From NCBI GenBank assembly GCA_017541265.1, contig JAFXZK010000018.1:1-38117 (forward strand): a stretch of 38,117 bases of DNA, given 5' to 3'. Below the pieces are notes generated by a model, which made no database searches, was not told the origin of the DNA, and worked only from the letters and a program-made list of their open reading frames with translations. Of the stretch, positions 1,171-35,272 are shown piece by piece. Position numbers and translations under genes: made by a program. Each line of letters starts with the position of its first letter. Position 1 is the first letter of the stretch. The stretch comes from Bacteroidaceae bacterium (lineage in GTDB: Bacteria > Bacteroidota > Bacteroidia > Bacteroidales > Bacteroidaceae).

Positions 1171-1210
1171 AAAGTTAAAAGGTAAAAAAGTTAAAAAGTC
1201 TAAAAAGCCT
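1171..1210 (+). repeat. A-rich short-period repeat between ndk and the M23 gene
   Basis: After the ndk stop the DNA reads as units of 7 to 9 bases of the form AAAAGTT, AAAAGGT, AAAAAAGTT, AAAAAGTCT, AAAAAGCCT. No hairpin terminator or clear promoter was seen here, so the peptidase gene may be read from the ndk transcript. Confidence 0.5.
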
Positions 1211-1221
1211 ACACAAGATAC

Positions 1222-2217
1222 ATGAAGTTTTTCACCACCCTTTTCCTGCTTTTTGCTCAATTATCGATTTTCAATTTCCAATCCTCAATTGCTACAGCAC
1301 AAGACCGTCTGGCAAGCATTGCGCCCATCGACCGCAAGATGCGTGCCATTGACAGCATATCGCTGATGCGGCTCGGCGAACAGGAGGCCCTTGCCAACCT
1401 GGAGTTCCCCGCCGCAGCACTCTACCCCAATTGGAACAACGACTACACACGTTCATACGACGTGGCACTTCCCTCCGAATACAAGATTGACCTGCGCGAC
1501 TTCCACATGCCGTGCGAAAGCCGCATGATTACCAGCCACTACGGATACCGCCGCTCCTTCCGCCGCCAGCACTACGGCACGGACATCAAGGTCTTTGTGG
1601 GCGATACCATTCGCGCCGCTTTCTCCGGCAAGGTGCGCGTCGTTGAAGACCAAGGCTACCGCAGAGGCTATGGCAAGTATGTGGTCATACGCCATCCCAA
1701 CGGACTGGAAACTGTTTACGGTCACTTGAGCAGGCATCTTGTCAAGCCCGACCAGATTGTCAGGGCAGGCGAAGTGATTGGACTGGGTGGCAACACCGGA
1801 CGCTCCACTGGCTCACACCTCCACTTCGAGACGCGCTTCCTCGGACAGTTCATCAACCCCGAGAAGCTCTTTGACTTCGAGGCACAGGACGTGAAGGGCG
1901 ACTACTACCTCTTCTGCTCAAACGGTCGTGGTGCCCTATTGGCTTCTGCCGACAACGTCGAGGGCGGCGAAGAGGAGATGGACGAAGAGACAGCCCGCGC
2001 ACTCATGGCTAAGGAAGCCGAGAGCGAGGCATTCCAGAAGAAGAAGATGCAAGAGATGCGGACAAAGCCCCGCACACATGTTCATAAGGTCAAGTCGGGC
2101 GAGACACTTTCTTCTATCGCACGCAAGTGCGGCACAACCATCGATAAGCTCTGCCGCATGAACAACATCAAGCGCACCACTATTCTGCGCCCCGGACAAA
2201 TCCTACGATACAGCTGA
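1222..2217 (+). CDS. Secreted M23 (LytM-type) metallopeptidase with C-terminal LysM domain
   Basis: This is a predicted peptidoglycan endopeptidase of 331 residues acting in the periplasm. Residues 1-27 form a signal peptide ending in ATAQ. The peptidase M23 domain spans roughly 95-215 and keeps the zinc and catalytic residues: His117 and Asp121 in HYGTD, His168 in YGHLS, and His199/His201 in HLHFE. An acidic, charged linker at about 245-285 leads to one LysM domain at about 287-330 (VKSGETLSSIARKCG, ending RPGQILRYS), which binds glycan strands. With all metal ligands present it should be an active hydrolase rather than a degenerate activator. The signal peptide is partly encoded by a five-unit heptamer repeat (1257-1291), which is odd for a coding region. 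The start is ATG at 1222; the hydrophobic stretch directly behind it supports the choice. Confidence 0.93.
   Translation: MKFFTTLFLLFAQLSIFNFQSSIATAQDRLASIAPIDRKMRAIDSISLMRLGEQEALANLEFPAAALYPNWNNDYTRSYDVALPSEYKIDLRDFHMPCESRMITSHYGYRRSFRRQHYGTDIKVFVGDTIRAAFSGKVRVVEDQGYRRGYGKYVVIRHPNGLETVYGHLSRHLVKPDQIVRAGEVIGLGGNTGRSTGSHLHFETRFLGQFINPEKLFDFEAQDVKGDYYLFCSNGRGALLASADNVEGGEEEMDEETARALMAKEAESEAFQKKKMQEMRTKPRTHVHKVKSGETLSSIARKCGTTIDKLCRMNNIKRTTILRPGQILRYS
1257..1291 (+). repeat. Degenerate 7-bp tandem repeat inside the signal-peptide codons
   Basis: Five consecutive 7-base units are seen: TCAATTA, TCGATTT, TCAATTT, CCAATCC, TCAATTG. They encode part of the hydrophobic core and end of the signal peptide of the M23 peptidase. 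Loss or gain of a unit would shift the frame. Confidence 0.7.
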
Positions 2218-2223
2218 TTACAG

Positions 2224-2345
2224 TTCATAGTTCATAGTCCATAGTTCATAGTTAATTTTCACGGCATAGCTTTGTGCGTTTGCCCCAACTATGAACTATG
2301 GACTAACTTTATATAAACTATTGACTATGAACTATGAACTATGGA
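2224..2345. repeat. Inverted 7-bp repeat blocks at the convergent M23/miaA junction
   Basis: Four units TTCATAG, TTCATAG, TCCATAG, TTCATAG lie at 2224-2251. The complementary units CTATGAA and CTATGGA follow at 2289-2302, and CTATTGA, CTATGAA, CTATGAA, CTATGGA at 2318-2345. The blocks are in opposite orientation, so RNA from either strand could fold, and they may act as a bidirectional terminator for the two converging genes. The miaA stop codon and last residues lie inside the right-hand block. No other gene is seen between 2218 and 2324. Confidence 0.75.
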
Positions 2346-3230
2346 CTCCACAAGCTCTTCTGTTGGCAGTGTGCCGTCGAGCCAGTGGATAGTGAAGCCG
2401 CGACGTTCCATGCCACGGAACCAAGTCATCTGCCGCTTGGCAAACTGATGGATGGCAATCTCAAGCTGTCGCACCATCTCATCATACGAAAGCTGACCCA
2501 GGCAATAAAGGGTCAGATACTTGTACTCTAATCCGTAATACATTAAATCCTCGGCAGGGACACGTTCCAAAAGGCGGCGCACCTCGCCCACCATGTCTTC
2601 TTGCTCCAGACGGCGGCGCAGCCTCTCGCTGATGCGCTGGCGGCGCAGTTCGCGACTGATGCTGACACCCACGATAATACTGTCTATGCAGGGGAACTCC
2701 CTTTCGAGCGTACCGTGCTCACGGTAGTAAGCCTGTATCTCGATGGCACGGATGGCCCGTTTCGGCGTATCGAGGTCCGTGACGTTGTGCAACGTCTTGT
2801 AGCCTTCGAGAATTATCTTCAACTCATCCAAAGACAAATCCTTCAGCCTTTCCCTTAATGCAGGGTTCTCCGGTACTGCCTCCATCTTGTAGCCCTTGAG
2901 GACTGACTCGATGTAGAGTCCTGTGCCGCCACAGAGAATAGGCTGCCGGTGGCGCGAAAGGATGTCGTCGTATGCTGCATGGAAGTCCTGCTGATAGCGA
3001 AAGAGGTTGTACTTCTCTCCCGCCTCGCAGATATCAATAAGGTGGAAGGGAATATGCTTCCCTTCCACCGTATAATCAGCCAAATCTTTACCTGTTCCGA
3101 TGTCCATGCCCCGATACACCTGCCTGCTGTCTGCGCTGATAATTTCAGCATCGCCAAGACGGGCGGCGAGGTGTGCGGCAAGCGTTGTCTTGCCGGAGGC
3201 CGTTGGGCCAAGGATGGTAATGAGTGGCAC
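2325..3230 (-). CDS. miaA: tRNA dimethylallyltransferase
   Basis: MiaA transfers a dimethylallyl group to N6 of adenosine 37 in tRNAs that read UNN codons. The 301 residues match the family length. Visible motifs are the P-loop GPTASGKTT at 8-16, the SADSRQVYRGMDIGTGK block that binds the prenyl donor, the following DIC segment, and the later TKRQMTWFRG-type sequence (AKRQMTWFRGMERRG). The start is GTG at 3228-3230, placed 8 bp after the stop of the upstream 52-residue gene, which suggests translational coupling. The last six residues, IVHSS with the preceding Ser, are encoded by the start of a 7-bp repeat block, so the native C-terminus seems to have been set by repeat DNA. Confidence 0.96.
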   Translation of the reverse strand: MPLITILGPTASGKTTLAAHLAARLGDAEIISADSRQVYRGMDIGTGKDLADYTVEGKHIPFHLIDICEAGEKYNLFRYQQDFHAAYDDILSRHRQPILCGGTGLYIESVLKGYKMEAVPENPALRERLKDLSLDELKIILEGYKTLHNVTDLDTPKRAIRAIEIQAYYREHGTLEREFPCIDSIIVGVSISRELRRQRISERLRRRLEQEDMVGEVRRLLERVPAEDLMYYGLEYKYLTLYCLGQLSYDEMVRQLEIAIHQFAKRQMTWFRGMERRGFTIHWLDGTLPTEELVESIVHSS

Positions 3231-3238
3231 CTTAAAGC

Positions 3239-3397
3239 TTACTCTTTTTCGTCATTACCCCAGAAATCCCAGCTCTCATCCTCCTTGGTGAGGACTTCGC
3301 CATTGGCATCGGCGCTGCCGCTCATCAAGCTGACAGCCATCATGTTCTGTACTTCTGCTTCGTTGACCTGCAGTGCAGGCATCATATATGTCTTCAT
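3239..3397 (-). CDS. 52-residue peptide upstream of miaA
   Basis: ATG at 3395-3397 opens a frame of 52 codons ending at TAA 3239-3241. The peptide begins MKTYMMPALQVNEAEVQNMM, passes through AVSLMSGSADANG, and ends acidic and aromatic (KEDESWDFWGNDEKE). Short peptides with this plan, a basic start then P-x-x-x-V and an MAVSL segment followed by a Trp-rich acidic end, are common in Prevotella as I recall; the function is unknown. It has no signal peptide or membrane segment. It sits 8 bp before miaA and is probably cotranscribed with it. Its leader holds a 31 bp sequence also found before the gene at 31177. It is too short to be a certain gene, but the spacing and composition support it. Confidence 0.7.
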   Translation of the reverse strand: MKTYMMPALQVNEAEVQNMMAVSLMSGSADANGEVLTKEDESWDFWGNDEKE

Positions 3398-3426
3398 AAT
3401 TTTCGATTTGACGATTTACTATTTAT
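3396..3426 (-). repeat. 31-bp leader repeat, copy 1
   Basis: On the minus strand the sequence directly before and into the start codon at 3397 is a 31 bp stretch that agrees at 28 positions with 31142-31172 on the plus strand, also just before a start codon. It is built of roughly 7-base units such as AAATAGT, AAATCGT, CAAATCG. Confidence 0.75.
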
Positions 3427-3454
3427 TAACTATTTTGTCATTTACCCCGCTGTT

Positions 3455-3563
3455 CTGGCGGATTTGTAATCCGCCAGCATAGAGTATAAGCATTTGTAAT
3501 GCGATAATACATGTCGGGATTGCAAATCCCTATACTCTCTACGGTCGGATTGCAAATCCGACC
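3455..3563. repeat. Cluster of four REP-like palindromes
   Basis: Four short hairpins with 3-base loops follow each other: stem CTGGCGGATT at 3455-3477 (loop TGT), GCATT at 3490-3502 (loop TGT), GGGATT at 3516-3530 (loop GCA), and GGTCGGATT at 3543-3563 (loop GCA). The cores share GATT-loop-AATC. An outer pair, AGAGTATA at 3481-3488 and TATACTCT at 3531-3538, encloses the two middle hairpins. The position after the stop of the 755-residue gene fits an mRNA-stabilising or terminating element. The style is that of REP sequences moved by RAYT transposases, but no transposase is in the window. Confidence 0.85.
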
Positions 3564-3581
3564 GAACGGGCAATAGGGTCT

Positions 3582-5849
3582 TTACTTCAGAATCTTCTTG
3601 CCGTTCACGATGTTGATGCCTTTCTGCATCTTCTGGATGCGCTGACCTGCGAGGTTGTAAATGCCGCCCTCTGATTCTTCATTCTTCATTCTTAATTCTT
3701 CATTTATGGAGGTTGCATCGTCTTCGTTGAAGAAGAATGCCTTGACGTTGGAATCAGGAACAGTCAGATAGCAACGGTTGGCACCGACGGTGGGCTGCTC
3801 CTGAGCAACATAGTAGAAGCCAATCTTGTCGTCGATGTTCTGCAGAACATAGCTGCCAAGGGGAGCAGGAGTGTCCTCATAGACACCGGTGAGCAAGCCG
3901 GCAGTGGGAGTGCCCTTGACATAGATACCGCTGGCAGGCATCTCGAATGCCTGAGGAATCTCAACAATAACAGGCGTATGAGCAGGAACAATACCGTCAG
4001 TGATGGGTTCGAGTGTCAGAACAGCCTTCTCCCCGACACCTGTAACAGTGCTTACCGTAACGAAGGATTGGTATTCGGCAGGTATAGCCACAGTGAAGGG
4101 AGCACAGAAAGTGCCGATGAGTGCGTCGCCAACCTTGAACGTTGTTTCTGCCTTGTCGCCAACCTCTACCTCAACGGGAGCGCCAGGGATATTGATGTCC
4201 AGATGAACATAGAAGTATTCGCCCTTGATGGTGCCGTTCAGCTCAACGGGGATGTCACCGAGTGTGGGACCAAGCCACATATCAACGCCTTCCTTATCGC
4301 CAGCAGTAATCTGGATGTTGCCATCATAGGAGAAGTTTCCCTGATTGTTTATCTGGAGATCAGGCACTGTGACGTTACCCACATTTGCAAGAGCGCCACC
4401 AAGGTCAAGGCTGAAGTTCTTAAGACTGAAGTCAATAGTGTTGTCATTGTTGAATGTCACCTCAATGGGAGCAGCAACAGGTGCATCATGTGCTACAGAC
4501 ACATACTTGTCATAGACAACAGGTTCATCAGGATAAATAAGTTCAATGTCGTCAATATACATATGGTCACCCGTCTGACCTTGGCCAGGATCAGCATTAG
4601 TGGAGATGTTGACGAGAATGTATATTTGACCATCAGGATTGTTGCCAGTCGCAACAAAAGGAATCGTTAGCTCTTTCCATTCACCATTGGTAGAAGGGAA
4701 ATCATACTCCGCTTTAGCAATAACCAAGTTCCTGTTATTATCGCTATCGTAACTGTCAGAACTATATGTGATATAGTTGCCATTCCCATGAACAATTGCT
4801 TGGACATGTGCATTGGGATGCTGCGTATTTACAGCAGCAGGAACAAACTTTACCCAAATCTTCATAGCAGAAGGAACCTTAGAAAGTGTCTCACTCTTCT
4901 TGGGGTCAGAAGTTTTGCTATAGTTGTAGTTATTCTTGGCAGAAGCCGAAGTGGCACCTGCATTGATACAACCTGTTGTAAGATTACCCTGAGCAACAAC
5001 ACCCAAAACACTACGAGACCAGATGTCGGCGCAATAGAGACCGTTGCTGCCAGGACGATTATCTTCTACCATCTGAACCTGCTGTGCGCTGGACAAGCTT
5101 GCCAAACTACCTTCAGCTGTCTCGAAAGAGTTCCAGTTGTCGGGAGCATGATTGCTGGAGGTTACGCCACGCCAGTCCTCGAAGTCGCCATTGCCAATCT
5201 GAGTAATACCAGCTGTAGTGTTGTCGATAACAGTTACGACAAACGAAATGTCCTCGAAGTCTTGTGCTGAAGCAGTAATCCTTGCAGAGCCAGCACCTAC
5301 AGGAGTAAGTTTGCCCTCTGCATCCACAGTTGCAACGGCTTCGTTGCTGGAAGCGTATGTAGGAGTTACTCCCTCCACACTCATACCGTCGTTTGCAGCA
5401 GGGTCATCATCTATGTTCATATAGACATGGTCCGTGGCACACATGAAAACACGGCCGGAAAATTTGGCATAATAAACTTTAGATGCGGGCGTGCTTTCCG
5501 TTGCCTTTATTGTGACTGGATACGTTGTATTCGTTGATAAAGCATTTCCTGTACAATTCTCATTATCAAACCAGCCGAGGAATTCTGCTTCTCCGCTGGC
5601 CTGTGCATAAAGATAATAGGTGTGCGTAGGCGCACTGCCCTGGTTGTCTGCACCGGATTCTGCAGAGGATTCTGCTGCATAATTCGGTGCATCCGCCTGG
5701 TTTTTGTAACTTACATAAACCTTACCCTCGCCTACAGCCTTGGCTGTAATCTTGGAATAATAATCTTTATTGCTGGCAAATGCCGACACACTAAACATGG
5801 TGAACATCACCATCATCAGGCTAAGTAGCCTCGTAAACTTAAATTTCAT
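3582..5849 (-). CDS. Large secreted multidomain protein with BIG2-, PCMD- and calycin-like regions
   Basis: This 755-residue protein has a signal peptide (about 1-25, ending SAFAS) and no lipobox. In order I see a repeat-like region at about 29-132 (FLGWFDNENCTGN, InlB/B-repeat style), a BIG2-like Ig fold at about 133-209 (YASSNEAVATVDAEGKLT), a region at about 214-440 beginning GNGDFEDWRG and ending MYIDDIELIY, typical of PCMD/carbohydrate-binding folds, then a calycin-like domain at about 448-560 (IDFSLKNFSLDLGGA). The end, GGIYNLAGQR then GINIVNGKKILK, resembles the C-terminal sorting signal of type IX secretion substrates. The calycin-like part has relatives in the 7135-8214 protein. A heptamer repeat encodes the linker before the tail. 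The role is probably surface-exposed binding; no catalytic residues were recognised. Confidence 0.8.
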   Translation of the reverse strand: MKFKFTRLLSLMMVMFTMFSVSAFASNKDYYSKITAKAVGEGKVYVSYKNQADAPNYAAESSAESGADNQGSAPTHTYYLYAQASGEAEFLGWFDNENCTGNALSTNTTYPVTIKATESTPASKVYYAKFSGRVFMCATDHVYMNIDDDPAANDGMSVEGVTPTYASSNEAVATVDAEGKLTPVGAGSARITASAQDFEDISFVVTVIDNTTAGITQIGNGDFEDWRGVTSSNHAPDNWNSFETAEGSLASLSSAQQVQMVEDNRPGSNGLYCADIWSRSVLGVVAQGNLTTGCINAGATSASAKNNYNYSKTSDPKKSETLSKVPSAMKIWVKFVPAAVNTQHPNAHVQAIVHGNGNYITYSSDSYDSDNNRNLVIAKAEYDFPSTNGEWKELTIPFVATGNNPDGQIYILVNISTNADPGQGQTGDHMYIDDIELIYPDEPVVYDKYVSVAHDAPVAAPIEVTFNNDNTIDFSLKNFSLDLGGALANVGNVTVPDLQINNQGNFSYDGNIQITAGDKEGVDMWLGPTLGDIPVELNGTIKGEYFYVHLDINIPGAPVEVEVGDKAETTFKVGDALIGTFCAPFTVAIPAEYQSFVTVSTVTGVGEKAVLTLEPITDGIVPAHTPVIVEIPQAFEMPASGIYVKGTPTAGLLTGVYEDTPAPLGSYVLQNIDDKIGFYYVAQEQPTVGANRCYLTVPDSNVKAFFFNEDDATSINEELRMKNEESEGGIYNLAGQRIQKMQKGINIVNGKKILK
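3677..3704 (-). repeat. 7-bp tandem repeat inside the 755-residue gene
   Basis: Four units CTTCATT, CTTCATT, CTTAATT, CTTCATT (plus strand) encode the peptide EELRMKNEE, which sits between the folded part and the C-terminal tail of the protein. The unit length is not a multiple of three, so slippage would remove the tail from the frame. Confidence 0.75.
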
Positions 5850-5864
5850 AATAACCTTAATGAT

Positions 5865-5888
5865 TTTGTTTGTTGATTTGTTTGTTGA
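5865..5888. repeat. 12-bp perfect tandem repeat in the leader of the 755-residue gene
   Basis: TTTGTTTGTTGA occurs twice without change at 5865-5876 and 5877-5888, with a related TTGTTTGTTTT at about 5900-5910. It fills the gap between the start codon at 5849 and the stop of the DUF4105 gene. Confidence 0.7.
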
Positions 5889-5894
5889 CGTATT

Positions 5895-7064: not shown

Positions 7065-7134
7065 ATGTATAGCCGGAGATTCATGCCACTGCGCCCTAAC
7101 GCCTTAATCTTTCAAGTATTAACCCTTTTTACCT

Positions 7135-8351: not shown

Positions 8352-8431
8352 AAGTCCCTGTTCTTATCTCCATAAGAACGTGGACTTATAGCCATAAGAA
8401 CGTGGACTTGTCTCCATAAGAACGTGGACTT
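8352..8431. repeat. 22-bp-period repeat array, copy 1
   Basis: Three units containing CCATAAGAACGTGGACTT begin at 8370, 8392 and 8414, so the period is 22 bp. They are preceded by the inverted arm AAGTCCCTGTTCTTAT at 8352-8367. Arms of adjacent units can pair. It lies downstream of the SusCD operon terminator, in the 314 bp gap 8215-8528, which also holds the promoter at 8265 and the terminator at 8460. Confidence 0.9.
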
Positions 8432-8528: not shown

Positions 8529-11045
8529 TTATTCCTGTGGGAGAGGTAGCCACCAGTGTGCCGGGTTGTTGAGCCAGCTGCGGAACGTCTCGTCCACCTC
8601 GCCTGTATGACGCTTTGCCACGCGCTTGGCGAGGTAGTCCGGTCCACGACGCTGTGCCACACGGCAAAGGTCGCTGAAGCGTGTGCCCTCGAAGGCAAGC
8701 TCAAGGGCGGCCTCGTCGATAATAAGATCCTCGACAGCATCCTGCACGTCCGACAGGTTTGCTTCGTCGTAGATAAAGTCCGCCAAGTCGTCGTCGCTGA
8801 CACTGATGCCATTCTCCTTGAGTTTCTTGCCGATCATCGTGACATAGTTGTAGCTCGAGCGGTACTCCACGGGATCGTCGTAGCGGATGATGCCGCAACC
8901 GCGCTGATGCACGCCGATGGTGTACATTCTATCCAAAGAGACACTTGAGGGGAAGTTGTCTGTGACAACAGCCGGGTTGTAGAGTTTAGTCCTGTCCTTG
9001 GTCAGAATTATCTGATGGTCTAACAGACCACGCATATAAACCTTCTCCTTGAAATCAAGGTATGGCAGGTCGGCGGCAAGCTTCACCTCGCGAAGAGGGA
9101 TATAGTAGCAAGCCTTGCCGCAGTCGTCGTTGGGCTTTTTACCTACAGCATCCTCGCTGGCAGGTCTATAGTAAACTTCACTCTTGTCGATGGTGCGGGG
9201 CGCTTCCATGGGTTCCAGAGGCTCGTCGGTACCCAAAGATGCCTGATATCTTACCTGATAGTCATCGTACTCCTGCTGGAAGTAATTTGTCAGCCAAGCC
9301 TCCAGCTCAGCATACGTCGACATCTTGTTATCGTCCTGCCAGCCTTCCGGCAACATGGTGTAAGAGCCATCGTCCGTCAGGTTATGATAATAGAACAACG
9401 AGTCCGTGATGGGATAGTCAAAGTAATTTCTCTTCAGCGGCTCTCCTGTCGAGGTATTGAAGTAGCCAAAGCCAAAATCCGTGATGGGTAAATACTTGCC
9501 ATTAGCCAAGTATTTCCTGTTGGGGTCAATGGGATACCATTCGGGATTTTCACAAAGGCCGGTCTTGAGGATGGCAAAGGCATAGCCCGGGAAACCAGCG
9601 CGGTTCAGGGCCTCGGCATAGCGGAGCCATACGGTGCTCTTACGGTAGATGACCGGATAAGTTGTGGAGAATGTGTATGAGTTTAAGGAAGAACTACTTC
9701 TGGGATTCTGCTTAGTCACCATCTTGCCATAGAATTCGTTGTCGCCCACACTGAATGTAAACTGGCTACCTCCTCTAGCATATATCCAAGAACGACGGGC
9801 ATCGCCCACTCCCGGCAACTCCTCGAGAGTCGTCGAGGTGTCCCACTTGAAGACTGTCCTGCCATTCTCGATAGCAGTCTCACCCACATAAATCTCATAC
9901 TTCTGACTGTCGCAGAGTGCCTCATAGCCCTTGCTGGGAAGCAACTCACGCTCATAGTTGCGGGAGAGGCTGACACCGCTGATGGTGACGTAGTACTCCT
10001 CGTCATTGAGGCTGACAGTGCCTGAAGCAGTTTGAAGCGTGGCATCGAAACCAAACAGGCGGTTAATGTCGGTCAGCACCCTGCCATCGAGCTTACCCAT
10101 GCTGCTGGGAATACATGTGATGGCTTCCCACTCCCTGCCGATGGCGCTTGTCTCATCATAAGGCACACCGGTATATTCATAAACAGGATAATCCAACCTG
10201 TCGTCCAGTACTCCCGTGCTGATGTAATCGTTAACAGACAGAGGTCCGCAGTTCCTTGTGTTGATGTAGTTGTAGTAATGGAGGGCTGCATCGGCATACT
10301 TGCCGCTCAACAGGTAGAGGTCGCCCAAGACGATGGACACAGGGAACATGCACCTGCTGCTGTGGCAGACACCCCTGTAATAGTTGTACTGCGGCAAGCC
10401 ATACTCCTTCTCGACCTGCTCCATCCTCTCTAACGTGGGTCCGAGCTCACGGGCAAGGTTGTCGGCATTGACCTTCGGATAGTTCTGGCTCGAAAGGAAG
10501 GTGGTGATGGCGTCGGTAGTGAGCATCGGCTGCGTGTAGAAGGGAACACGGTCGGGACCGTATGCGTAAAGCAGCTGCATGTAAACCCACGCACGGATGG
10601 CCTGCACCTGGGCATACTCCTTAATCATGTAGGGCTGGTTCGTGCCCGTCCTGCGCGTTGTGTCGCAATAGGCAATATAAGCGTTACAGCTGTTGATGAT
10701 GTGATAGTAGTCGCTTATCCTCATATAAACGCAGGAACCATCCTTCCACCACTTCTCGGGATCGGATGTGACACCGAATTCGCAGATGGCAGCAATGGAG
10801 TCGCTGACATAGCCGGACGGGTCAACCAGGTCGCCACGGCACTCGTTCAGAATAACATACCGCTCTGCAATGTTCTGCAGAGACTTGATAATACCCCAAT
10901 AGGAATAAAGGGTATCCTGTGCCACGGTGTATGCGTGACGGTCGCTGTTGGGAGAGAGCATGTCCTGGCAGGAAGTGGAGAACATGCCCAACACCATGCC
11001 CAGCAACATCATGCATATAATTGATTTCCTTTTCATCTTATTCAA
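8529..11045 (-). CDS. SusD/RagB-like surface lipoprotein, unusually long (module 2)
   Basis: SusD proteins cap SusC transporters on the cell surface and bind substrate. This one has 838 residues against the usual 500-650. The lipoprotein signal ends FSTSC with Cys26 as the lipidated residue. SusD-like helical repeats are seen in the N-terminal half (SDYYHIINSCNAYIAYC, YAQVQAIRAWVYMQLLYAYG, GDLYLLSGKYADAALHYYNY), and the C-terminal end has AALELAFEGTRFSDLCRVAQ, the usual conserved helix near the end of the family. The middle, about 300-650, is expanded. The gene follows SusC with a 33 bp gap, filled by a heptamer repeat, and a terminator lies after it. An alternative start at Met4 is possible. 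Confidence 0.9.
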   Translation of the reverse strand: MNKMKRKSIICMMLLGMVLGMFSTSCQDMLSPNSDRHAYTVAQDTLYSYWGIIKSLQNIAERYVILNECRGDLVDPSGYVSDSIAAICEFGVTSDPEKWWKDGSCVYMRISDYYHIINSCNAYIAYCDTTRRTGTNQPYMIKEYAQVQAIRAWVYMQLLYAYGPDRVPFYTQPMLTTDAITTFLSSQNYPKVNADNLARELGPTLERMEQVEKEYGLPQYNYYRGVCHSSRCMFPVSIVLGDLYLLSGKYADAALHYYNYINTRNCGPLSVNDYISTGVLDDRLDYPVYEYTGVPYDETSAIGREWEAITCIPSSMGKLDGRVLTDINRLFGFDATLQTASGTVSLNDEEYYVTISGVSLSRNYERELLPSKGYEALCDSQKYEIYVGETAIENGRTVFKWDTSTTLEELPGVGDARRSWIYARGGSQFTFSVGDNEFYGKMVTKQNPRSSSSLNSYTFSTTYPVIYRKSTVWLRYAEALNRAGFPGYAFAILKTGLCENPEWYPIDPNRKYLANGKYLPITDFGFGYFNTSTGEPLKRNYFDYPITDSLFYYHNLTDDGSYTMLPEGWQDDNKMSTYAELEAWLTNYFQQEYDDYQVRYQASLGTDEPLEPMEAPRTIDKSEVYYRPASEDAVGKKPNDDCGKACYYIPLREVKLAADLPYLDFKEKVYMRGLLDHQIILTKDRTKLYNPAVVTDNFPSSVSLDRMYTIGVHQRGCGIIRYDDPVEYRSSYNYVTMIGKKLKENGISVSDDDLADFIYDEANLSDVQDAVEDLIIDEAALELAFEGTRFSDLCRVAQRRGPDYLAKRVAKRHTGEVDETFRSWLNNPAHWWLPLPQE

Positions 11046-11075
11046 TTTTGAAATTTGACTTTTGGATTTTGAATT
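11041..11075 (-). repeat. 7-bp tandem repeat between susC and susD of module 2
   Basis: Five units TTCAATT, TTGAAAT, TTGACTT, TTGGATT, TTGAATT (plus strand) fill the gap between the SusC stop at 11079 and the SusD start at 11045. Confidence 0.75.
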
Positions 11076-26030: not shown

Positions 26031-26112
26031 AAGTCCCCGTACTTATGGCTATAAGAACACGGACTTATGGCAATAAGTACAGGGACTTATGGCAATAAGT
26101 ACAGGGGTTTGT
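26031..26112. repeat. 22-bp-period repeat array, copy 2
   Basis: The arm AAGTCCCCGTACTTAT at 26031-26046 is followed by three 22-base units at 26047, 26069 and 26091. Each starts GGC(T/A)ATAAG and ends in a variant of GGACTTAT. The organisation and sequence match the array at 8352-8431, in the same orientation. The inner palindrome is ACTTAT-GGCA-ATAAGT. Confidence 0.9.
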
Positions 26113-26963: not shown

Positions 26964-26998
26964 ATAAGGCCCACAAGATCTTGTCTTATGGGCCTTAT
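26964..26998 (+). terminator. Hairpin after the ThiD-like gene
   Basis: ATAAGGCCCA pairs with TGGGCCTTAT, with a second small inverted repeat (CAAGATCTTG) inside the loop. It begins 4 bp after the stop codon. The U-run is weak (TTATTATA). Confidence 0.6.
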
Positions 26999-27060
26999 TA
27001 TAGGTCATATGGGACTTATGGGTCTTATAGGTCTTATAAGTCCCACAAGTCTTATGGATT
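26998..27060. repeat. 9-bp tandem repeat at the convergent kinase/wzc junction
   Basis: Seven 9-base units follow a TTAT(A/G)GGTC pattern: TTATAGGTC, ATATGGGAC, TTATGGGTC, TTATAGGTC, TTATAAGTC, CCACAAGTC and a last one running into the wzc stop codon. Within it GGGACTTAT (27011-27019) and ATAAGTCCC (27036-27044) can form a stem behind wzc. The complementary strand has the same TATAAGACC core as the junction at 34147-34188. Confidence 0.75.
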
Positions 27061-29548: not shown

Positions 29549-29597
29549 GTTGTTTTGTATTTTGGTTTGTATTACATTCTATAATGCGATTAGCGTG

Positions 29598-29628
29598 CAA
29601 AGATACAAATATTTATAATAATGTTAAA
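29598..29628 (-). promoter_or_regulatory. Promoter for the wzc-type gene
   Basis: On the minus strand TATCTTTG (29605-29598) fits the -7 element. The -33 candidate TTTA (29628-29625) is 19 bp upstream and imperfect. It leaves a leader of about 45 nt. Confidence 0.55.
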
Positions 29629-29701
29629 GGATTTGCACGAAAAATTGTCTTTCCGTGCAGATTTCTCTATCATTCCTTGTCATATATTGCAGAAAAAGTC
29701 G

Positions 29702-29709
29702 TAACTTTG
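29702..29709 (+). promoter_or_regulatory. -7 element for the sugar transferase gene
   Basis: TAACTTTG fits TAnnTTTG. The best upstream match is CTTG at 29676-29679, 22 bp away, which is poor. With the ATG at 29720 the leader would be only a few bases; with the ATG at 29753 it would be about 37. Confidence 0.45.
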
Positions 29710-29719
29710 TCTTCGGAGT

Positions 29720-31117
29720 ATGCGCATACGATGCGTTTCTCCCCTCAGAACAATGCACGAAGGAAAGACTAACATATCTGTGCGGCAAACCGCGCGGCGG
29801 TGGCTTTTGGATGGCATGAACCTGCTGGTCGAGGCACTCGTCTGGATGGGTTGTTTCTATTTGGCAGCTCTCACGGATGGCATAAAGCCAGGTGCAGGCA
29901 TAGTGCCGCCGTATATCTGGTTTGTGCTATATTGCTACGGACTTGCATTCCTCTTTGTCGTTTCGCGCTTCATCCCTAACAACGCCTACAGCCGGACTGC
30001 CCGGCGCGACGAGGTGGTGGCACAGGCGATGAAGACTGCGCTTGCCTGCGGCGTGCTTGCCTTCGCAGTCTTCACCGAAAGGAATGCCATACAAATCACC
30101 GGCTGCCTCTTTTTCTTCGTGGCGCTGGCAACAGAGCGGCTCGTCACCAACAGCTGGTTCATACGCTACAGCCTGCGTCACGGCGAACAAGGCGTCATCA
30201 TCTGCAACGAGGAAACCGCCTGGCAACTGGAGGCGCTGCAGCAAAACACCTACGGGCTGAAGCTGAACCGCTTGGAGATGCAAGCGGAACAGGAACAACT
30301 GGCGGCACAGCGGCTGGAAGTATATCTCGGCGCACATCCCGAAACGGAGAGTGTCTACATTTCACCCCTCGCGCTTCACGATTCACATGAATTGGAGGAC
30401 ATTGCCCACATTTGCCGCAAGCAGGGACAGACGTTTCACCTTCTGCCCATCGCCCCACGCCCCTTGCCCCAGACGATGCAAAGCGAATGCCGAGGCACCG
30501 TCGGCGTACTTTCACCGGCAAAGCTTCCCTTGCAAAGCTTTGCCAACAGAGCGGTCAAGCGTCTGACCGACATCGTGCTGAGCCTCATAGTCCTGCTCAC
30601 CATCTTCCCCGTCTTTGCAGTCATTGCCTTCATCCTCATCAAGAGGCAGAGCAAGGGTCCCGTACTTGAAGCCCGACACCTTTGCGGCATGGACGGCAAG
30701 ACATTCCTTTGCCTCACCTTCCGCACACGCCACTATGAGGCGGCACCATCCTTCCTCGACGGAGCGGACGACCCCGGCTACTTCCCCTTCGGCAGGTTTT
30801 TGACAAACACCAGACTGGAGTTGCTGCCGCAATTCCTCTGTGTACTTTGGGGCAGCATGACGATTGTCGGCTCACAGGCAATGCCGCCCGAGCAATATGC
30901 CAATTACAAACGCGAACTGAGACAACTCTTCGCCACTGGCTGCCACCTCAAGGCAGGCATCACCAATCCTTCACTCTCCGCTTTTCACTCCTCGCTTACG
31001 GAGGCTGATGTCTGGTACTCTCGCAACTGGGGCTTCTGGCTTGACCTGCGCATCATGCTTCAGCGCCTCGGCACATTGCTTAGCAAGTCGAAGGCAAAGT
31101 CTATTAATTATATATAA
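29720..31117 (+). CDS. Divergent polyprenyl-phosphate sugar-phosphotransferase with altered active site
   Basis: This 465-residue membrane protein is related to the enzymes that put the first sugar phosphate on undecaprenyl phosphate (bacterial sugar transferase, PF02397). Three or four N-terminal membrane segments lie between about 33 and 140, then a soluble part, then the transferase region from about 275: KRLTDIVLSLIVLLTIFPVF with its membrane segment, SKGPVLEARH at 311-320, and RLELLPQFLCVLWGSMTIVG at 365-384. In active members the last motif is SLDELPQ with an essential Asp-Glu pair, and VGPRP follows. Here the pair is Glu367-Leu368 and VGPRP is VGSQA. It may be inactive or have a different role. 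The start could be Met1 (29720) or Met12 (29753). It diverges from wzc. Confidence 0.8.
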   Translation: MRIRCVSPLRTMHEGKTNISVRQTARRWLLDGMNLLVEALVWMGCFYLAALTDGIKPGAGIVPPYIWFVLYCYGLAFLFVVSRFIPNNAYSRTARRDEVVAQAMKTALACGVLAFAVFTERNAIQITGCLFFFVALATERLVTNSWFIRYSLRHGEQGVIICNEETAWQLEALQQNTYGLKLNRLEMQAEQEQLAAQRLEVYLGAHPETESVYISPLALHDSHELEDIAHICRKQGQTFHLLPIAPRPLPQTMQSECRGTVGVLSPAKLPLQSFANRAVKRLTDIVLSLIVLLTIFPVFAVIAFILIKRQSKGPVLEARHLCGMDGKTFLCLTFRTRHYEAAPSFLDGADDPGYFPFGRFLTNTRLELLPQFLCVLWGSMTIVGSQAMPPEQYANYKRELRQLFATGCHLKAGITNPSLSAFHSSLTEADVWYSRNWGFWLDLRIMLQRLGTLLSKSKAKSINYI

Positions 31118-31141
31118 TGTATAGAACCATTCCGATAATCC

Positions 31142-31172
31142 ATAAATAGTAAATCGCTAAATCGTAAATTAT
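31142..31172 (+). repeat. 31-bp leader repeat, copy 2
   Basis: This sequence ends 4 bp before the ATG at 31177 and matches 28 of 31 bases of the leader before the small gene at 3397. The units (ATAAATAG, TAAATCG, CTAAATCG, TAAATTA) show a 7-8 base period. Confidence 0.75.
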
Positions 31173-31176
31173 TATC

Positions 31177-31803
31177 ATGTCCATATTCAGCAAACTCTTC
31201 CGAAGAAACGGGAAAGACGAACAGACAAAGGTAGGCGGCATGGAGGACTTCATGCTCCTCATCCGTGTCTATTATCAAGCGGTGATGGCAGCACAGCTCG
31301 GTATCAACAACCTGGGTGCACTGCCCGACCTCCGCATCTTCAAACAGACCTACCGCGTCGCCACCCTCAACAACAAGCTCGGCATCGCCGAGAAGAAGCA
31401 CTGCCGCAAGCTCATGCAGGACATCTACAAAGTGAGCGACGGCTTCTTCACAGAGATTGACGGCAGCATCCGCAAGCACTGCCGCAAGATACAGGATGCC
31501 CAAAGCTATCTCATTCAGTTCCAAGGCTTCAGCCAGGACCTCATGATGCTCATGGGTAACCTCATGCAGTGGAAGATGCGCCTGCCCGGCTTCTTCAAAG
31601 GCGCACTCCGCGAGATGACGGCAAAGCAGGTGCACCAGATTATGACCAAGAACGACTGGAAGGACGAAGGCGTGCGCCGCGCCTGTGTCTCCGTACGCAA
31701 ATACCAAAACGTGCTCGGCTACACCGAAGAGTGGATGACGGAGTACGTCCATACCATCGTGATGCTCGCAAAAAAGGAGCCAAAGAAAAATAGTGAGGAA
31801 TAA
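31177..31803 (+). CDS. Conserved-looking hypothetical protein, all-helical
   Basis: This 208-residue protein has no signal peptide. After a basic start (MSIFSKLFRRNG) the sequence is mostly helical and charged (GGMEDFMLLIRVYYQAVMAA, RLPGFFKGALREM). I do not recognise a family. It lies 60 bp after the sugar transferase and 58 bp before the promoter of the coiled-coil/zapA/rny run, so it could be read with the former. The codon use and regular length suggest a real gene. The leader contains the 31 bp repeat also found at 3396-3426. Confidence 0.75.
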   Translation: MSIFSKLFRRNGKDEQTKVGGMEDFMLLIRVYYQAVMAAQLGINNLGALPDLRIFKQTYRVATLNNKLGIAEKKHCRKLMQDIYKVSDGFFTEIDGSIRKHCRKIQDAQSYLIQFQGFSQDLMMLMGNLMQWKMRLPGFFKGALREMTAKQVHQIMTKNDWKDEGVRRACVSVRKYQNVLGYTEEWMTEYVHTIVMLAKKEPKKNSEE

Positions 31804-31804
31804 A

Positions 31805-31836
31805 CTTGCATAAAGAAAAAAAAAGTACTATCTTTG
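31805..31836 (+). promoter_or_regulatory. Promoter of the coiled-coil/zapA/rny operon
   Basis: TATCTTTG at 31829-31836 matches the -7 element. CTTG at 31805-31808, exactly 20 bp upstream, is a one-mismatch -33. The first gene starts at 31862, leaving a leader of about 20 nt. Confidence 0.65.
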
Positions 31837-31861
31837 TGCGCAAATTGAGATAATCGTTGCC

Positions 31862-32161
31862 ATGAACCAGGAATTGAGAGATATCATCACACGGCTCGAG
31901 ACGCGCGTCAGGCAGCTCATCATGCAGCAGGAGAAGCTGGTTGAGGAGCAGGACAGACTGCGCAAGCAACTCGGCGAAAAGGATGACGAAATACTCAACC
32001 TCCAAATTCAGAACGAAGAACTCAAACAACAATACAGCCGTCTGAAGATGGCAAAGTACATCGACATGGCCGACAACGACGTCAAAGACATGCGCGGCCG
32101 TATCAGAACGATGGTGCGCGATATTGACCGGTGCATCTCTATGCTCAAAGTAACACAGTAA
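31862..32161 (+). CDS. Small coiled-coil protein upstream of zapA
   Basis: This 99-residue protein is almost entirely heptad-patterned helix (LETRVRQLIMQQEKLVEEQD, LNLQIQNEELKQQYSRLKMA). It has no signal peptide or membrane segment. It lies 6 bp before zapA on the same strand, so the two are very likely co-translated. The size, shape and neighbour suggest a ZapB-like cell division partner; this is inference from context, since coiled coils carry little family information. Confidence 0.8.
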   Translation: MNQELRDIITRLETRVRQLIMQQEKLVEEQDRLRKQLGEKDDEILNLQIQNEELKQQYSRLKMAKYIDMADNDVKDMRGRIRTMVRDIDRCISMLKVTQ

Positions 32162-32167
32162 AAGACA

Positions 32168-32458
32168 ATGGATGACACCCTATCAATAACTCTCCGCTTC
32201 GGCTCATGGACCCTGCCCATGACCATCAAGCGTGACGAAGAATACATCTACCGTCAGGCAGAAAAGCTTATCAAGGAGAGATACAGCTTCTATACAAGCA
32301 GCTACCCCGGACAGAACACAGAGATGTATCTGGTGATGACTATCCTCGACATTGCAGTGCTAAGCAAACGACAGGAAACCACCAACGATGCACAGCCTGT
32401 GATGAATGCCCTTCGTCCGCTGCTTGCAGAAGTTGAGGCCGCACTCATCAAAAAGTGA
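32168..32458 (+). CDS. zapA: Cell division protein ZapA
   Basis: ZapA binds FtsZ and promotes bundling of the division ring. The 96-residue protein has the ZapA plan: a short beta N-terminal domain (LSITLRFGSWTLPMTIKRDE) then RQAEKLIKERYSFY and a C-terminal helix for coiled-coil dimerisation (LRPLLAEVEAALIKK). It sits 6 bp after the coiled-coil gene and 42 bp before rny. In many bacteria a 6S RNA follows zapA; the gap here is too short for one. Confidence 0.88.
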   Translation: MDDTLSITLRFGSWTLPMTIKRDEEYIYRQAEKLIKERYSFYTSSYPGQNTEMYLVMTILDIAVLSKRQETTNDAQPVMNALRPLLAEVEAALIKK

Positions 32459-32500
32459 GAGTAAGTGACCTAATTATTAACATCTAACTTTTATAATCGA

Positions 32501-34063
32501 ATGACAATAGACATCATTATTGCCCTCTCGGTAGCCATCATAGTGTTCTTTATCCTTGTGGCGGTATGGTACTTTGTGGCTGTGCCTGCCAAGCGCAAGG
32601 CACTTGCCGAAGAAGCCCGGGAGAATGCCGAAAAAGAGGCAGAAGTCATCAAGCAGAAGAAACTGCTTGAAGTGAAAGAGAAATTCTTGAGCAAGCGTAC
32701 CGAGCTCGAGAAGGAAGTGCGCCAGCACAACCAACAGATACAGCAGAGCGAGAACCGCATCAAGCAGCGCGAAATGCAGCTCAACCAGAAGCAGGACGAA
32801 CTGACACGTCGCAAGCAGGAAGCCGACGCACAGCGCCAGCGCATGGAAACACAGCAGGGATTGCTCGAGAAGAAGGAAGAGGAACTCAATGCACGCTTCT
32901 CCGACCTTATCAACCAGGAGCGCACAAAGCTCGAAGAAATTTCAGGGTTGAGCGTGGAAGAGGCCCGTGAGCGTCTCATCGAAACACTCAAGGACGAGGC
33001 AAAGACCAATGCCGCCGCCTACATCAATGAGATAATGGACGACGCACGCATGACAGCCACAAAGGAAGCCAAGCGCATCATCATCCAGAGCATCCAGCGT
33101 GTTGCTACAGAGACGGCCGTCGAGAACTCCGTCACAGTGTTCCACATCGACAACGACGAGGTGAAGGGACGCATCATCGGCCGCGAAGGTCGCAACATCC
33201 GCGCCCTCGAGGCAGCAACAGGTGTCGAGATTGTCGTCGACGACACACCCGAGGCCATCGTCATCAGTGCCTTCGACCCCATTCGCCGCGAGATATGTCG
33301 TCTGGCTCTCCACCAGCTTGTGTCCGACGGACGCATCCATCCCGCACGCATCGAGGAAGTTGTGGCAAAGGTGAAGAAGCAGATTGACGAGGAAATCCTA
33401 GAAGTGGGCAAGCGCACCACCATCGACCTGGGCGTACATGGATTGCATCCCGAACTGATTCGCATCGTTGGTAAGATGAAGTACCGCAGCAGCTACGGAC
33501 AAAATCTGTTGCAACATGCACGCGAGACAGCTAACCTATGTGCCGTCATGGCAAGCGAACTCGGTCTCAATCCGAAGAAAGCAAAGCGTGCCGGCCTGCT
33601 GCACGATATCGGCAAGGTGCCCGACGAAGAGCCAGACCTGCCGCACGCCTTGTACGGAGCGAAGCTTGCAGAGATGTATAAGGAAAAGCCCGACATCTGC
33701 AACGCCATAGGCGCACACCATGATGAAATGGAGATGACCACCCTGATTGCTCCCATCGTACAGGCCTGCGACGCCATCAGCGGCGCCCGTCCCGGTGCCC
33801 GCCGCGAAATTGTCGAGGCCTACATCAAGCGCCTTAAGGACTTAGAGGACATAGCTATGAGCCACCCAGGTGTGGTAAAGACGTATGCCATCCAAGCAGG
33901 TCGCGAACTGCGTGTCATCGTCGGTGCCGACAAGATCGACGACAAGCAGACAGAGCAGCTCAGCACCGATATTGCAACTAAGATTCAGAACGAGATGACA
34001 TATCCCGGACAGGTCAAGATAACCGTTATTCGCGAGACACGTTCCATCGCCTACGCGAAGTAA
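32501..34063 (+). CDS. rny: Ribonuclease Y
   Basis: RNase Y is a membrane-bound endoribonuclease that starts mRNA decay. The 520 residues contain the N-terminal membrane segment (about 3-25), a long charged coiled coil to about 190, a KH RNA-binding domain at about 205-290 ([20 protein letters not shown]) and an HD domain at about 330-430 with [31 protein letters not shown] (His-Asp metal ligands) and [11 protein letters not shown]. All parts are present and of usual length. It is the last gene of the zapA run and is followed by a hairpin. In several Bacteroidetes zapA and rny are neighbours, as here. Confidence 0.97.
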
Positions 34064-34104
34064 ACCGTCTTACCTCCCTCCGAAGAGAAAAAAACAACAA
34101 ACGG

Positions 34105-34140
34105 AAATGCCCCTGCGCCGTCTTTGGCACAGGGGCATTT
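34105..34140 (+). terminator. Intrinsic terminator of rny
   Basis: AAATGCCCCTG and CAGGGGCATTT form an 11 bp stem, with GCC/GGC able to pair inside the loop, followed by ATTTTTAT. It is 42 bp after the stop codon. Confidence 0.88.
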
Positions 34141-34146
34141 ATTTTT

Positions 34147-34188
34147 ATAAGACCTATAAGACTATAAGACATATATGTCCTATAAGAC
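34147..34188. repeat. 8-9-bp tandem repeat at the convergent rny/recA junction
   Basis: Units ATAAGAC, CTATAAGAC, TATAAGAC, ATATATGTC, CTATAAGAC follow each other, and the next unit contains the recA stop codon. The core is the same as in 26998-27060 read on the other strand. Inner palindrome: GACATATATGTC. Confidence 0.75.
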
Positions 34189-35217
34189 TTATTGGCCTTG
34201 CTTCATTGCCTCATAAATCTTTGCCGTGATCTCGTCGCAAAGCTCCGGGTTGTCGCGAAGGACTTTCTTTGTGGCATCCTTGCCCTGGCCGAGCTTGCTG
34301 CCGCCATAGCTGTACCAAGAGCCACTCTTCTCGACAATCTTGAAGTCTGTAGCCAAGTCGATTATCTCACCGACACGGCAGATGCCCTCGCCATACATGA
34401 TTTCAAACTCGGCACGGCGGAAGGGGGGCGCCACTTTGTTCTTCACCACCTTGACCTTCACCTCGTTGCCAATGATGGTATCGCCGTCCTTGATGCTTTG
34501 AGACTTACGGATGTCGAGGCGCACCGAAGCGTAGAATTTCAGAGCATTGCCGCCAGTGGTCGTTTCAGGATTGCCAAACATGACACCAATCTTCTCGCGG
34601 AGCTGGTTAATAAAGATGCAGGTGGTGTTCGTCTTGTTGATGGTTGCGGTGAGCTTACGCAAGGCCTGACTCATCAGTCGTGCCTGCAAGCCAACCTTGT
34701 TATCGCCCATGTCGCCCTCCAGCTCTGCCTTGGGCGTCAGGGCAGCCACAGAGTCGATGACAATAATATCTACTGCCGCACTGCGAATAAGCTGGTCGGC
34801 GATGTCGAGAGCCTGCTCTCCGTTGTCGGGCTGCGAGATGAGAAGCTCGTCCACGTTCACGCCGAGGTTGGCGGCATAGAAGCGGTCGAAGGCATGCTCC
34901 GCATCAATGAATGCAGCTATGCCGCCTTGCTTTTGCGCCTCTGCAATAGCGTGCAGGGCAAGCGTCGTCTTGCCTGAAGACTCAGGACCGTATATCTCCA
35001 CGATACGTCCCCTTGGGTAGCCGCCCACGCCGAGCGCGTAGTCCAGCGTAATGGAGCCAGTGGGAATGACCTTTATGTTGTCGATTTTCTCCTCGCCAAG
35101 CTTCATGATAGAGCCTTTGCCAAAGTCCTTCTCTATCTTTTCCATTGCGGCCTTTAGTGCTTTCAACTTCTCGTTCTGCTCCCCACCGGCAGCAGCTTCT
35201 TCTAACTTTTTTGCCAT
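34189..35217 (-). CDS. recA: Recombinase A
   Basis: RecA forms filaments on single-stranded DNA for homologous recombination and for cleavage of LexA-type repressors. The 342-residue protein has the Walker A motif GPESSGKT at 77-84, IDAEHAFD, Walker B region [12 protein letters not shown], loop L2 ([20 protein letters not shown]) and [17 protein letters not shown]. The acidic C-terminal tail is short. Its stop codon lies in a 9-bp repeat unit. The leader carries a five-unit 8-bp repeat. No SOS box was identified. The upstream dehydrogenase gene ends 69 bp before the start, so readthrough is possible. Confidence 0.98.
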
Positions 35218-35232
35218 AATCTTATCTTTTTT

Positions 35233-35272
35233 CGTTATTACGTTATGTCGTTATCACGTTATATCGTTATGA
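35233..35272 (-). repeat. Five-unit 8-bp repeat in the recA leader
   Basis: CGTTATTA, CGTTATGT, CGTTATCA, CGTTATAT and CGTTATGA follow without gap (plus strand). The first six bases of each unit are invariant. The block ends 15 bp before the recA start codon. Confidence 0.85.

Follow-up and report, generated by a model that had tools for sequence, protein, structure and literature searches.

Tandem arrays with very short units of 7, 8 or 9 bp are dispersed over the 38,117-nucleotide contig JAFXZK010000018.1 of a Bacteroidaceae bacterium (the window, i.e. the whole stretch of DNA that was analysed) and over the genome to which it belongs. On balance we are inclined to read these arrays as very short interspersed repeats that fall into many lineage-specific families and have tandem 7-, 8- or 9-mer bodies; the families would spread by array-templated copying, and one of them may have a leader role in front of start codons. 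The window, whose gene content (SusD-like and TonB-dependent receptor genes, guaA, ndk, miaA, recA and rny) by itself suggests a member of the Bacteroidales, corresponds to contig 74 of an assembly of 3.24 Mb (143 contigs, 87% complete; genome G000). Repeats were counted in a sample of 421 kb of this genome, consisting of the window and 20 further stretches, and in other genomes of the same genus, which are denoted by handles such as G012. Array load was estimated in 33 congeneric genomes including G000, with 15-421 kb sampled per genome.

Short-period arrays in the window and the genome

The original prediction listed ten places in the window with tandem units of a short common period, located at gene junctions and gene ends. 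All ten passed a test in which the claimed interval was shuffled 2000 times and scored for self-identity at the claimed period, a test that covers the claimed places only. For eight places none of the 2000 shuffles reached the observed self-identity (Table 1); the places 3396-3426 and 31142-31172 received weaker support (P=0.024 and P=0.0075, respectively). Under a stricter test, the maximal-segment score set against order-3 Markov sequence of 38 kb (about 3 expected), the arrays at 1257-1291, 11041-11075, 3396-3426 and 31142-31172 taken singly did not exceed the background. The calls made by Tandem Repeats Finder are included in Table 1; the program made no call at 1257-1291 and returned only an 11-bp pair near 3396-3426. 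The two weakest arrays, 3396-3426 and 31142-31172, can nevertheless be considered real because they are near-identical copies of each other (28 of 31 positions, on opposite strands). The 31-mer that they share was matched 16 times in the 421 kb at up to 8 mismatches, including two overlapping pairs, and five permuted queries gave no match at all.

The proposed count of short periods, made in the 421 kb against randomised sequence and between intergenic and coding parts, bore the observation out. We found 53, 22 and 11 segments with a period of 7, 8 and 9, respectively, versus 0.3, 0.0 and 0.0 in Markov sequence (mean of 3 runs). The other periods were nearly empty, with 1, 1, 0, 0 and 1 segments for periods 2 to 6 and 0, 1, 2 and 0 for periods 10 to 13, and the spectrum peaked in addition at the multiples 14, 16, 18, 21 and 24. 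With a looser threshold 114 arrays were recovered, of which 65 were intergenic, though only 8.8% of the sequence is non-coding, and 49 were located in reading frames, as assigned by a simple caller of open reading frames (ORFs). The corresponding densities are 1.76 arrays per kb of intergenic and 0.128 per kb of coding sequence, a difference of around 14-fold. The siting at junctions was thus corroborated, and the same holds for the entry of arrays into signal-peptide-like and linker codons, as in the arrays at 1257-1291 and 3674-3704. The claim that the arrays share a period and differ in sequence has to be amended for three sets of places, each of which shares a family: 2224-2251 and 2318-2345 represent one family in inverted orientation, the two 9-mer arrays belong to a second and lie on opposite strands (with TTATAGGTC and TATAAGACC as units), and the arrays at 3396 and 31142 represent a third.

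A dispersed family in front of start codons

The family of the arrays at 3396 and 31142 has the architecture (TAAATNG)n-TNAAATNG-TAAAT, and these two arrays were used to derive the search pattern GTAAATNGTNAAATNGTAAAT. Within 30 best-match loci and the 421 kb, at most one mismatch being allowed, an ATG followed in sense at 38 of the 51 sites and on the antisense side at none of the 51 (an ATG was scored when at most 45 nt downstream and opening an ORF of at least 60 codons). The distance to the ATG was between -2 and 7 nt in 30 of the 38 cases, with peaks at -2 (a two-base overlap) and at 7; such an ATG was found at 17% of random intergenic points. In the relatives the ATG was present in sense at 17 of 32 and at 9 of 10 sites, and in antisense at 1 and 0, respectively. 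Matches to the leader pattern were present in 50 of 61 congeneric genomes including G000, with numbers ranging from 1 to 155 per genome. The orthologues of the gene at 31177-31803, which is preceded by the copy at 31142, possess related leaders in G068 and G013 and a more diverged one in G052, and none that is obvious in G008, G012 and G024.

As the fixed pattern imposes the 7/8 step, this step was excluded from the evidence and retested with free spacing (at least four AAAT at a spacing of 6-9, 421 kb). Of the 23 chains obtained in this way 18 ended 8-7, and an ATG was found in sense for 12 and in antisense for 0. Given an 8-step at one fixed position, independent slippage is an unlikely source of the leader family. 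The genomic settings were diverse: among 33 leader sites with an ATG within 25 nt, 12 were located at most 60 nt and 2 at most 150 nt behind a co-directional gene, 9 were farther away, 8 were divergent and 2 had an unknown setting. Because sites also occur between divergent genes or far from the upstream gene, the family does not represent merely an operon-junction device. Some of the sites that lack a qualifying ATG precede short genes, like the 52-aa ORF at 3397, or seem to lie within reading frames.

We read this family as a dispersed translation leader, comparable to the TAACTGA repeats of Beggiatoaceae. Bacteroidetes generally lack Shine-Dalgarno sites, and initiation driven by ribosomal protein S1 on unstructured leaders has been proposed (PMC3155529). 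In F. johnsoniae both secondary structure and upstream nucleotides, e.g. an A at -3, modulate initiation (PMC6847099). A more far-reaching version, which we put forward only tentatively, holds that the heptad-octad cassette is a transplantable translation leader that has been copied ahead of many genes and whose recognition falls to the initiation machinery or to a dedicated RNA-binding protein. On this view array-templated copying would also account for the spread of the other heptamer families, and every lineage would possess its own junction repeats, with no transposase involved.

Dispersal, ends and inverted pairs of the AACTATG family

A 32-mer of the AACTATG family was matched 129 times (61+68) in G000 at up to 3 mismatches, overlapping matches within long arrays being counted, and its reversed control was not matched. 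One 32-mer with a single variant recurs identically at 7 places on 7 contigs of G000, two of which lie within longer arrays. The arrays also have preferred ends: in G000 the start was in phase 0 in 19 of 32 and the end in phase 3 in 17 of 32 cases. The same phases prevail in loci from named records (80 of at least 117 stretches with four AACTATG units, mostly Bacteroidota), with the start in phase 0 in 52 of 130, and the end in phase 3 in 47 and in phase 3-4 in 77 of 130. The length classes of 25, 32 and 39 nt of these repeats are imposed by the search pattern and were excluded from the evidence.

Many arrays are single; among the 30 pairs of neighbouring arrays in G000, however, 18 were inverted and of the same family, 1 was direct and 11 were unmatched, whereas random pairs of arrays were inverted in 4.3% and direct in 3.6%. 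In 41 sequences of several genomes the 52 neighbour pairs included 28 inverted, 4 direct and 20 unmatched ones. The AACTATG/AATTATG pairs share one polarity, in 11 of 11 cases in G000 and in 17 versus 2 in the named loci. The identity between two loops of AACTATG-type pairs reached 90% over 30 nt, and further loops have 9-16 nt in common. One complete arm-loop-arm structure of 96 bp could be compared to the orthologous junctions in G068 and G012, which lack it. In the carrier the left arm contains the end of the upstream gene (VVDTIKECIVHSS*), and the last ATG in the right arm can serve as the start of the downstream gene, which then reads MNCKKAIILA; in G068 the respective sequences are VVDTIKKCL* and MKAIILA. 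No target-site duplication was visible by eye at this one clean comparison of a filled and an empty site. Arrays provide the stop codon of the gene at two of the examined loci (miaA and the 96-bp pair) and a start codon at one, and in G000 the stop lies inside the array at 13 of the 43 gene 3' ends that adjoin one.

Since the AACTATG arrays have mostly shared end points, recurrent variant patterns, one pair polarity and a few similar loops, this family points to copying between loci rather than to slippage alone. A nested arrangement of inverted arrays was seen in G069 (L113:7168-7324), with inner AACCTCT arms around one loop inside outer AATTATG arms.

Differences between related species

The array load among the 33 congeneric genomes ranged from 0 to 37 per 100 kb, and both the repeat families and the dominant period change between sister species. 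The leading families are AACTATG and AAAAGGTG in G000, and AAGTCCTAT, AAGACCTAT and AAATCACAG in G069, in which period 9 (32 arrays) exceeds period 7 (16 arrays). In G012 and G024 the leading family is AACAGAC, with only 8 arrays each. One orthologous junction can hold different repeats. The TonB/SusD junction contains 7-mers of the AATTTTG type in the window, a 9-mer array in G069, two AACTATG units in G068, AATTATG-like units in G012 and G024, and no array in G051. The 8-mer of the recA leader is kept in the window, G051, G052, G013 and G069 (around 3-5 units by eye) and is absent in G008, G012 and G024, while G067 and G068 have a long other sequence there. The saccharopine dehydrogenase gene carries an in-frame extra stretch at one place, of 87 nt in G069 and 42 nt in G013, with heptamers that differ by eye, and neither form was present in the 7 other aligned genomes.

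The expected gain and loss of units between relatives was observed to a limited extent. In the close pair G012 and G024 one of four distinct comparable loci differed, by 21 nt (3 units), and 6 array clusters had no comparable partner; the only further indication is the unit number of the recA leader.

Relation to known repeats

The heptanucleotide short tandemly repeated repetitive (STRR) sequences of cyanobacteria consist of short tandem units. The original prediction called the arrays reminiscent of these; they do resemble heptanucleotide repeats reported from other bacteria, and tandem arrays with units in the range of 5-11 bp exceed the chance length in G000. Long simple sequence repeats in bacteria likewise have short tandem units, 7 bp being the commonest (Mrazek 2007, summarised in PMC4679880). 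Compared with what is described for both, G000 has three periods, the dominant period shifts between sister species and there are preferred ends and palindromic pairs.

The closest parallel to the leader family is found in marine Beggiatoaceae, where TAACTGA repeats of 2-6 units are mostly intergenic and 147 of 170 sets have one orientation to the start codon; 132 of those lack a ribosome-binding site, and the largest class ends 1 nt upstream (MacGregor 2015, PMC4679880). The same report mentions other heptamers in some Bacteroidetes, describes the dispersal mechanism as not evident and proposes a translational role. The two systems, as far as described there, are alike in the heptamer unit, the intergenic siting and the orientation, the leader family having one orientation with the start codon a few nt away. 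They differ in that the unit in G000 is TAAATNG with one 8-mer step (TNAAATNG), that many further families, with units of 7, 8 and 9 bp, are present beside it and that AACTATG forms inverted pairs of one polarity. None of the 29 distinct heptamer units found in the 68 heptamer arrays of the 421 kb is TAACTGA. Both tandem heptamers and a heptamer directed at start codons (Beggiatoaceae, PMC4679880) were already known.

The GGGNATC repeats of Xanthomonas and Nostoc are heptameric and dispersed, in excess in non-coding sequence and near ORF ends, and form quadruplexes (Rehm 2015, PMC4692102). By that description the properties up to and including the proximity to ORF ends are shared, but GGGNATC is a G-rich quadruplex former whereas the G000 arrays are mostly A+T-rich. 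BrickBuilt of Porphyromonas gingivalis, a miniature inverted-repeat transposable element (MITE)/minisatellite, is dispersed between genes and has 23-nt tandem units, predicted stem-loops and a unit number that varies between strains (Klein 2015, PMC4596501). Its leader and tail ends are inverted repeats related to the ends of insertion sequences (IS; PMC4596501). On this account both are tandem direct repeats in small intergenic elements, with units of 7-9 nt in G000 and not 23 nt. IS-like ends were not noticed at the G000 arrays, no systematic search having been made. The flanks of four families were inspected for a conserved leader or tail, and a short flank in common (tgtca/tctca) was seen in just one of them, a 9-mer family of G069.

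Within the terms searched, the open-licence literature gave no account of 7-, 8- and 9-bp families that share a genome and have preferred ends and polarity, of a species-by-species replacement at orthologous junctions, or of the leader family.

Direct repeats with a unit of exactly 22 bp form a mostly separate class. They occur in the window at 8363-8431, 26041-26106 and 37937-37987, with 30 segments in the 421 kb and representatives in 22 of 33 sampled genomes. Less than half of the segment lies within ORFs in 28 of the 30, several contain a short dyad (e.g. ACTTAT-GGCA-ATAAGT) and a few are multiples of shorter units. Judged by the BrickBuilt description, their unit is close to the 22-23 nt repeats of P. 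gingivalis (23 nt in BrickBuilt) and nearer to these than the 7-9 nt arrays are.

A possible mechanism and its alternatives

If the arrays are families that spread by array-templated copying, an array already present would serve as the template from which replication or repair makes a new copy elsewhere. The copying would be primed by short homology through template switching, without a transposase. In-register slippage would alter the unit number afterwards and selection would clear copies from reading frames. The leader family may be retained as an A+T-rich, weakly structured landing zone for the ribosome in a phylum without Shine-Dalgarno sites, and its TAA codons, which can stop upstream translation, could be a second reason for retention. 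Template switching, which is known to generate inverted copies (PMC8794818), is favoured because no transposase could be linked to the arrays and no target duplication was seen, yet in view of the lack of arm homogenisation (see below) this step remains a guess. The earlier claim that one process makes the arrays and that no mobile family is involved was thus half right: slippage shapes the arrays, but the AACTATG and leader families look copied between loci.

Several observations weigh against this reading. With regard to the inverted pairs, the excess was absent outside G000 (6 inverted and 6 direct in G069, 1 and 0 in G013, 2 and 6 in other congeners), and also from the named AACTATG loci (19 versus 17). 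Most loops between paired arms are unrelated. The similarity within a pair of arms does not exceed that between arms from other pairs of the same family (12/19, P=0.47), so that the arm homogenisation considered for template switching was not seen, and two of the three repeats with the variant pattern AATAA are the arms of one pair. No transposase or other factor acting in trans was linked to the load among the families tried (PF01797, TIGR00619 and PF00078). For the leader family, the reversed pattern is not silent in G000, with 80 control matches versus 219 at up to two mismatches and 24 versus 155 at up to one, and matches are scarce or lacking in many of the 61 genomes. A qualifying ATG is lacking at 13 of the 51 sites and at 15 of the 32 in the loci of relatives. 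The leader RNAs fold more weakly (median -4.2 versus -5.6 kcal/mol, P=0.008), a difference that is confounded by A+T content. An A at -3 is not enriched (0.33 versus 0.50 in other genes), and a Kozak-like signal was rejected on this ground, as was an A-rich sense strand for all leader arrays (20 versus 12 among solo arrays).

The alternative that survives best, though we consider it unlikely, is slippage only: arrays would grow in place from chance X-Y-X seeds spaced 7-9 bp apart, and the intergenic excess would reflect selection against frameshifts. The quantisation of periods at 7-9, with none at 10, is in line with this, and so are the 3-unit difference between G012 and G024 and the different unit numbers at recA. 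The same holds for array length, since length modulo 7 peaks at 4-5 (36 of 68 arrays in G000), as expected for X(YX)n, whereas simulated insertions of whole units peak at 0-1. This result also counts in favour of our own reading, although the length-modulo-unit peak is not seen for 8-mers and not clear for 9-mers. Slippage does not predict many arrays of the same unit with common end points, one variant 32-mer at 7 places, species-specific families including the shift of the dominant period from 7 to 9 in G069, or the 8-7 ending in 18 of 23 freely spaced leader chains.

An improbable alternative is that the arrays are MITE- or REP-like elements moved in trans by a transposase (e.g. RAYT/Y1), the heptamer arrays being terminal inverted arms. 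The arm-loop-arm structures of around 96-98 bp would fit, given their single polarity and the partial sharing of loops, and the Y1 transposase family is matched four times in G000. In the first 11 genomes Y1 (PF01797) was matched in the 4 with the highest measured load, but the association vanished over 33 genomes (7 with a full-length match versus 26 others, Mann-Whitney P=0.23), which led us to reject Y1 as the mover. Moreover, the one clean site shows no visible target-site duplication, many arrays stand alone and most loops are unrelated. SbcD (TIGR00619; 0 of 11 genomes above the cut-off, weak matches in 6 of 11) and RVT_1 (PF00078; 2 of 11) do not track the load either. A Y1 (IS200/RAYT-like) transposase gene of G000 (C49:17875-18213, L276) is adjoined, by eye, by the REP-like sequences GCCCAGGGC...GCCCTGGG and CCCCAAAGGGG.

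That the arrays are functional hairpins or terminators selected at gene ends has little probability. As RNA, the inverted pairs have strong folds (median z -8.4 for 25 pairs, against 30 mononucleotide shuffles each), and stop-closed frames facing inward outnumber those facing outward in 27 pairs, whereas the reverse holds in 6 and the numbers are equal in 10. However, of 27 inverted pairs 8 were located between divergent genes, 8 between co-directional and 7 between convergent ones, and 4 within ORFs, by which the terminator role was rejected. For solo arrays, frames were closed towards gene ends in 19 of 43 and towards gene starts in 17 of 34 cases, showing no preference; the supply of stop codons was accordingly dismissed as the cause of their orientation. 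An assembly artefact, for which the fragmentation and incompleteness of the draft metagenome-style G000 assembly could be cited, is scarcely credible given that recA-leader arrays recur in assemblies of other species and AACTATG arrays in the strain genome of Neolewinella lacunae KCTC 42187.

Finally, candidates for a sequence common to all arrays were rejected. TGAA(N3) as a universal core was found in 42 of the 68 heptamer arrays of G000 (null maximum 25), but when the 29 distinct units were scored the best pattern reached 13 (null maximum 12). The four-fold TGAA(N3) pattern had 154 matches in G000 versus 2 for the reversed pattern, and at least one match in 144 of 295 genomes of the order, the control often being equally frequent; because it is so in many other genomes, we consider the pattern a lineage trait. 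A generally shared flanking sequence was likewise discarded (GGC[TC]NCGCC and its complement occur 5 times near arrays versus 1.1 expected, and promoter-like words occur as well). The promoter-like word TAnnTTTG lies 4-13 nt outside the intergenic array edge in 11 of 130 edges, around 4 times the background (421 kb).

Features of the window

Table 1. Arrays and associated features of the window, with the calls of Tandem Repeats Finder (TRF) and the outcome of the interval shuffle test (shuffles reaching the observed self-identity)
Position	Strand	Feature	TRF call (unit)	Shuffled interval and outcome
1170..1207	+	8-bp array (AAAAGTTA), leader of M23/LysM peptidase gene	1170-1207 (8 bp)	
1257..1291	+	Degenerate 7-bp array (CAATTTT-like) within N-terminal signal-peptide-like region of M23 peptidase (FAQLSIFNFQSSIATAQ)		1257-1291, 0/2000
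2222..2253	-	7-bp array, exactly AACTATGAACTATGGACTATGAACTATGAACT on the minus strand; left arm of inverted pair	2222-2253 (7 bp)	2224-2251, 0/2000
2254..2286	.	33-nt loop between AACTATG arms; holds TAGCTTTG, matching TAnnTTTG		
2287..2347	+	Right arm of inverted pair, interrupted AACTATG units	2287-2347 (7 bp)	2318-2345, 0/2000
3396..3426	-	TAAATNG/TNAAATNG leader-family copy immediately before 52-aa ORF		3396-3426, weaker
3674..3704	-	7-bp array (GAAGAAT) encoding linker NEELRMKNEE ahead of C-terminal tail GIYNLAGQR	3674-3704 (7 bp)	3677-3704, 0/2000
11041..11075	-	Degenerate 7-bp array (AATTTTG), leader of SusD-like gene	11044-11075 (7 bp)	11041-11075, 0/2000
26998..27060	.	9-bp array (TTATAGGTC) 3' of wzc-like gene	26998-27042 (9 bp)	26998-27060, 0/2000
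31142..31172	+	Leader-family copy, 7 nt ahead of ATG of gene 31177-31803	31143-31169 (7 bp)	31142-31172, weaker
34146..34192	.	9-bp array (TATAAGACC) between convergent rny and recA, past G+C-rich inverted repeat	34146-34192 (9 bp)	34147-34188, 0/2000
35233..35274	-	8-bp array (CGTTATNA), recA leader	35233-35274 (8 bp)	35233-35272, 0/2000

At several of these places the relatives have other sequence. The junction of the array at 1170 measures 30-85 bp in 9 relatives, without an obvious array. The right arm at 2287 supplies the last codons and the stop of miaA (ELVESIVHSS*), and an array of this type was found at the miaA junction in none of 9 relatives, two of which have long other sequence there. 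One unit of the array at 3674 reads TTAAGA in place of TGAAGA, by which the frame stays open, and six relatives have 22-28 bp at this position that look unlike the GAAGAAT array. The rny/recA junction in G008 and G052 holds repeats with a longer unit (around 22 bp by eye).

In secreted proteins the linker that precedes the C-terminal tail (window 3674-3704, and L376, L377 and L414) looks, by eye, like a recurrent landing place of in-frame arrays; the tails are of the YDLxGR or IYNLxGQR type, which we take to be type IX-like. The 52-aa ORF at 3236-3397 on the minus strand (MKTYMMPALQVNEAEVQ...EDESWDFWGNDEKE) has matches near the same genes in G020 and G069, and similar-looking short ORFs occur in other relatives. 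Matches to MiaA consisted of two adjacent pieces (around query 3-119 and 178-292), with the middle seemingly absent or unrecognisable, in G001, G004, G021, G022, G042, G046, G047, G050, G053, G054, G060, G062, G065, G073 and G074.

Implications

Bacterial heptamer repeats are usually credited to slippage. Here they appear as dispersed families with preferred ends and polarity, which swap at orthologous junctions and of which the leader family holds a fixed orientation and a near-fixed distance to the start codon. This raises two testable questions, namely how such short repeats may spread without an evident transposase, and whether bacteria without Shine-Dalgarno sites may use shared leader cassettes for the start of translation.

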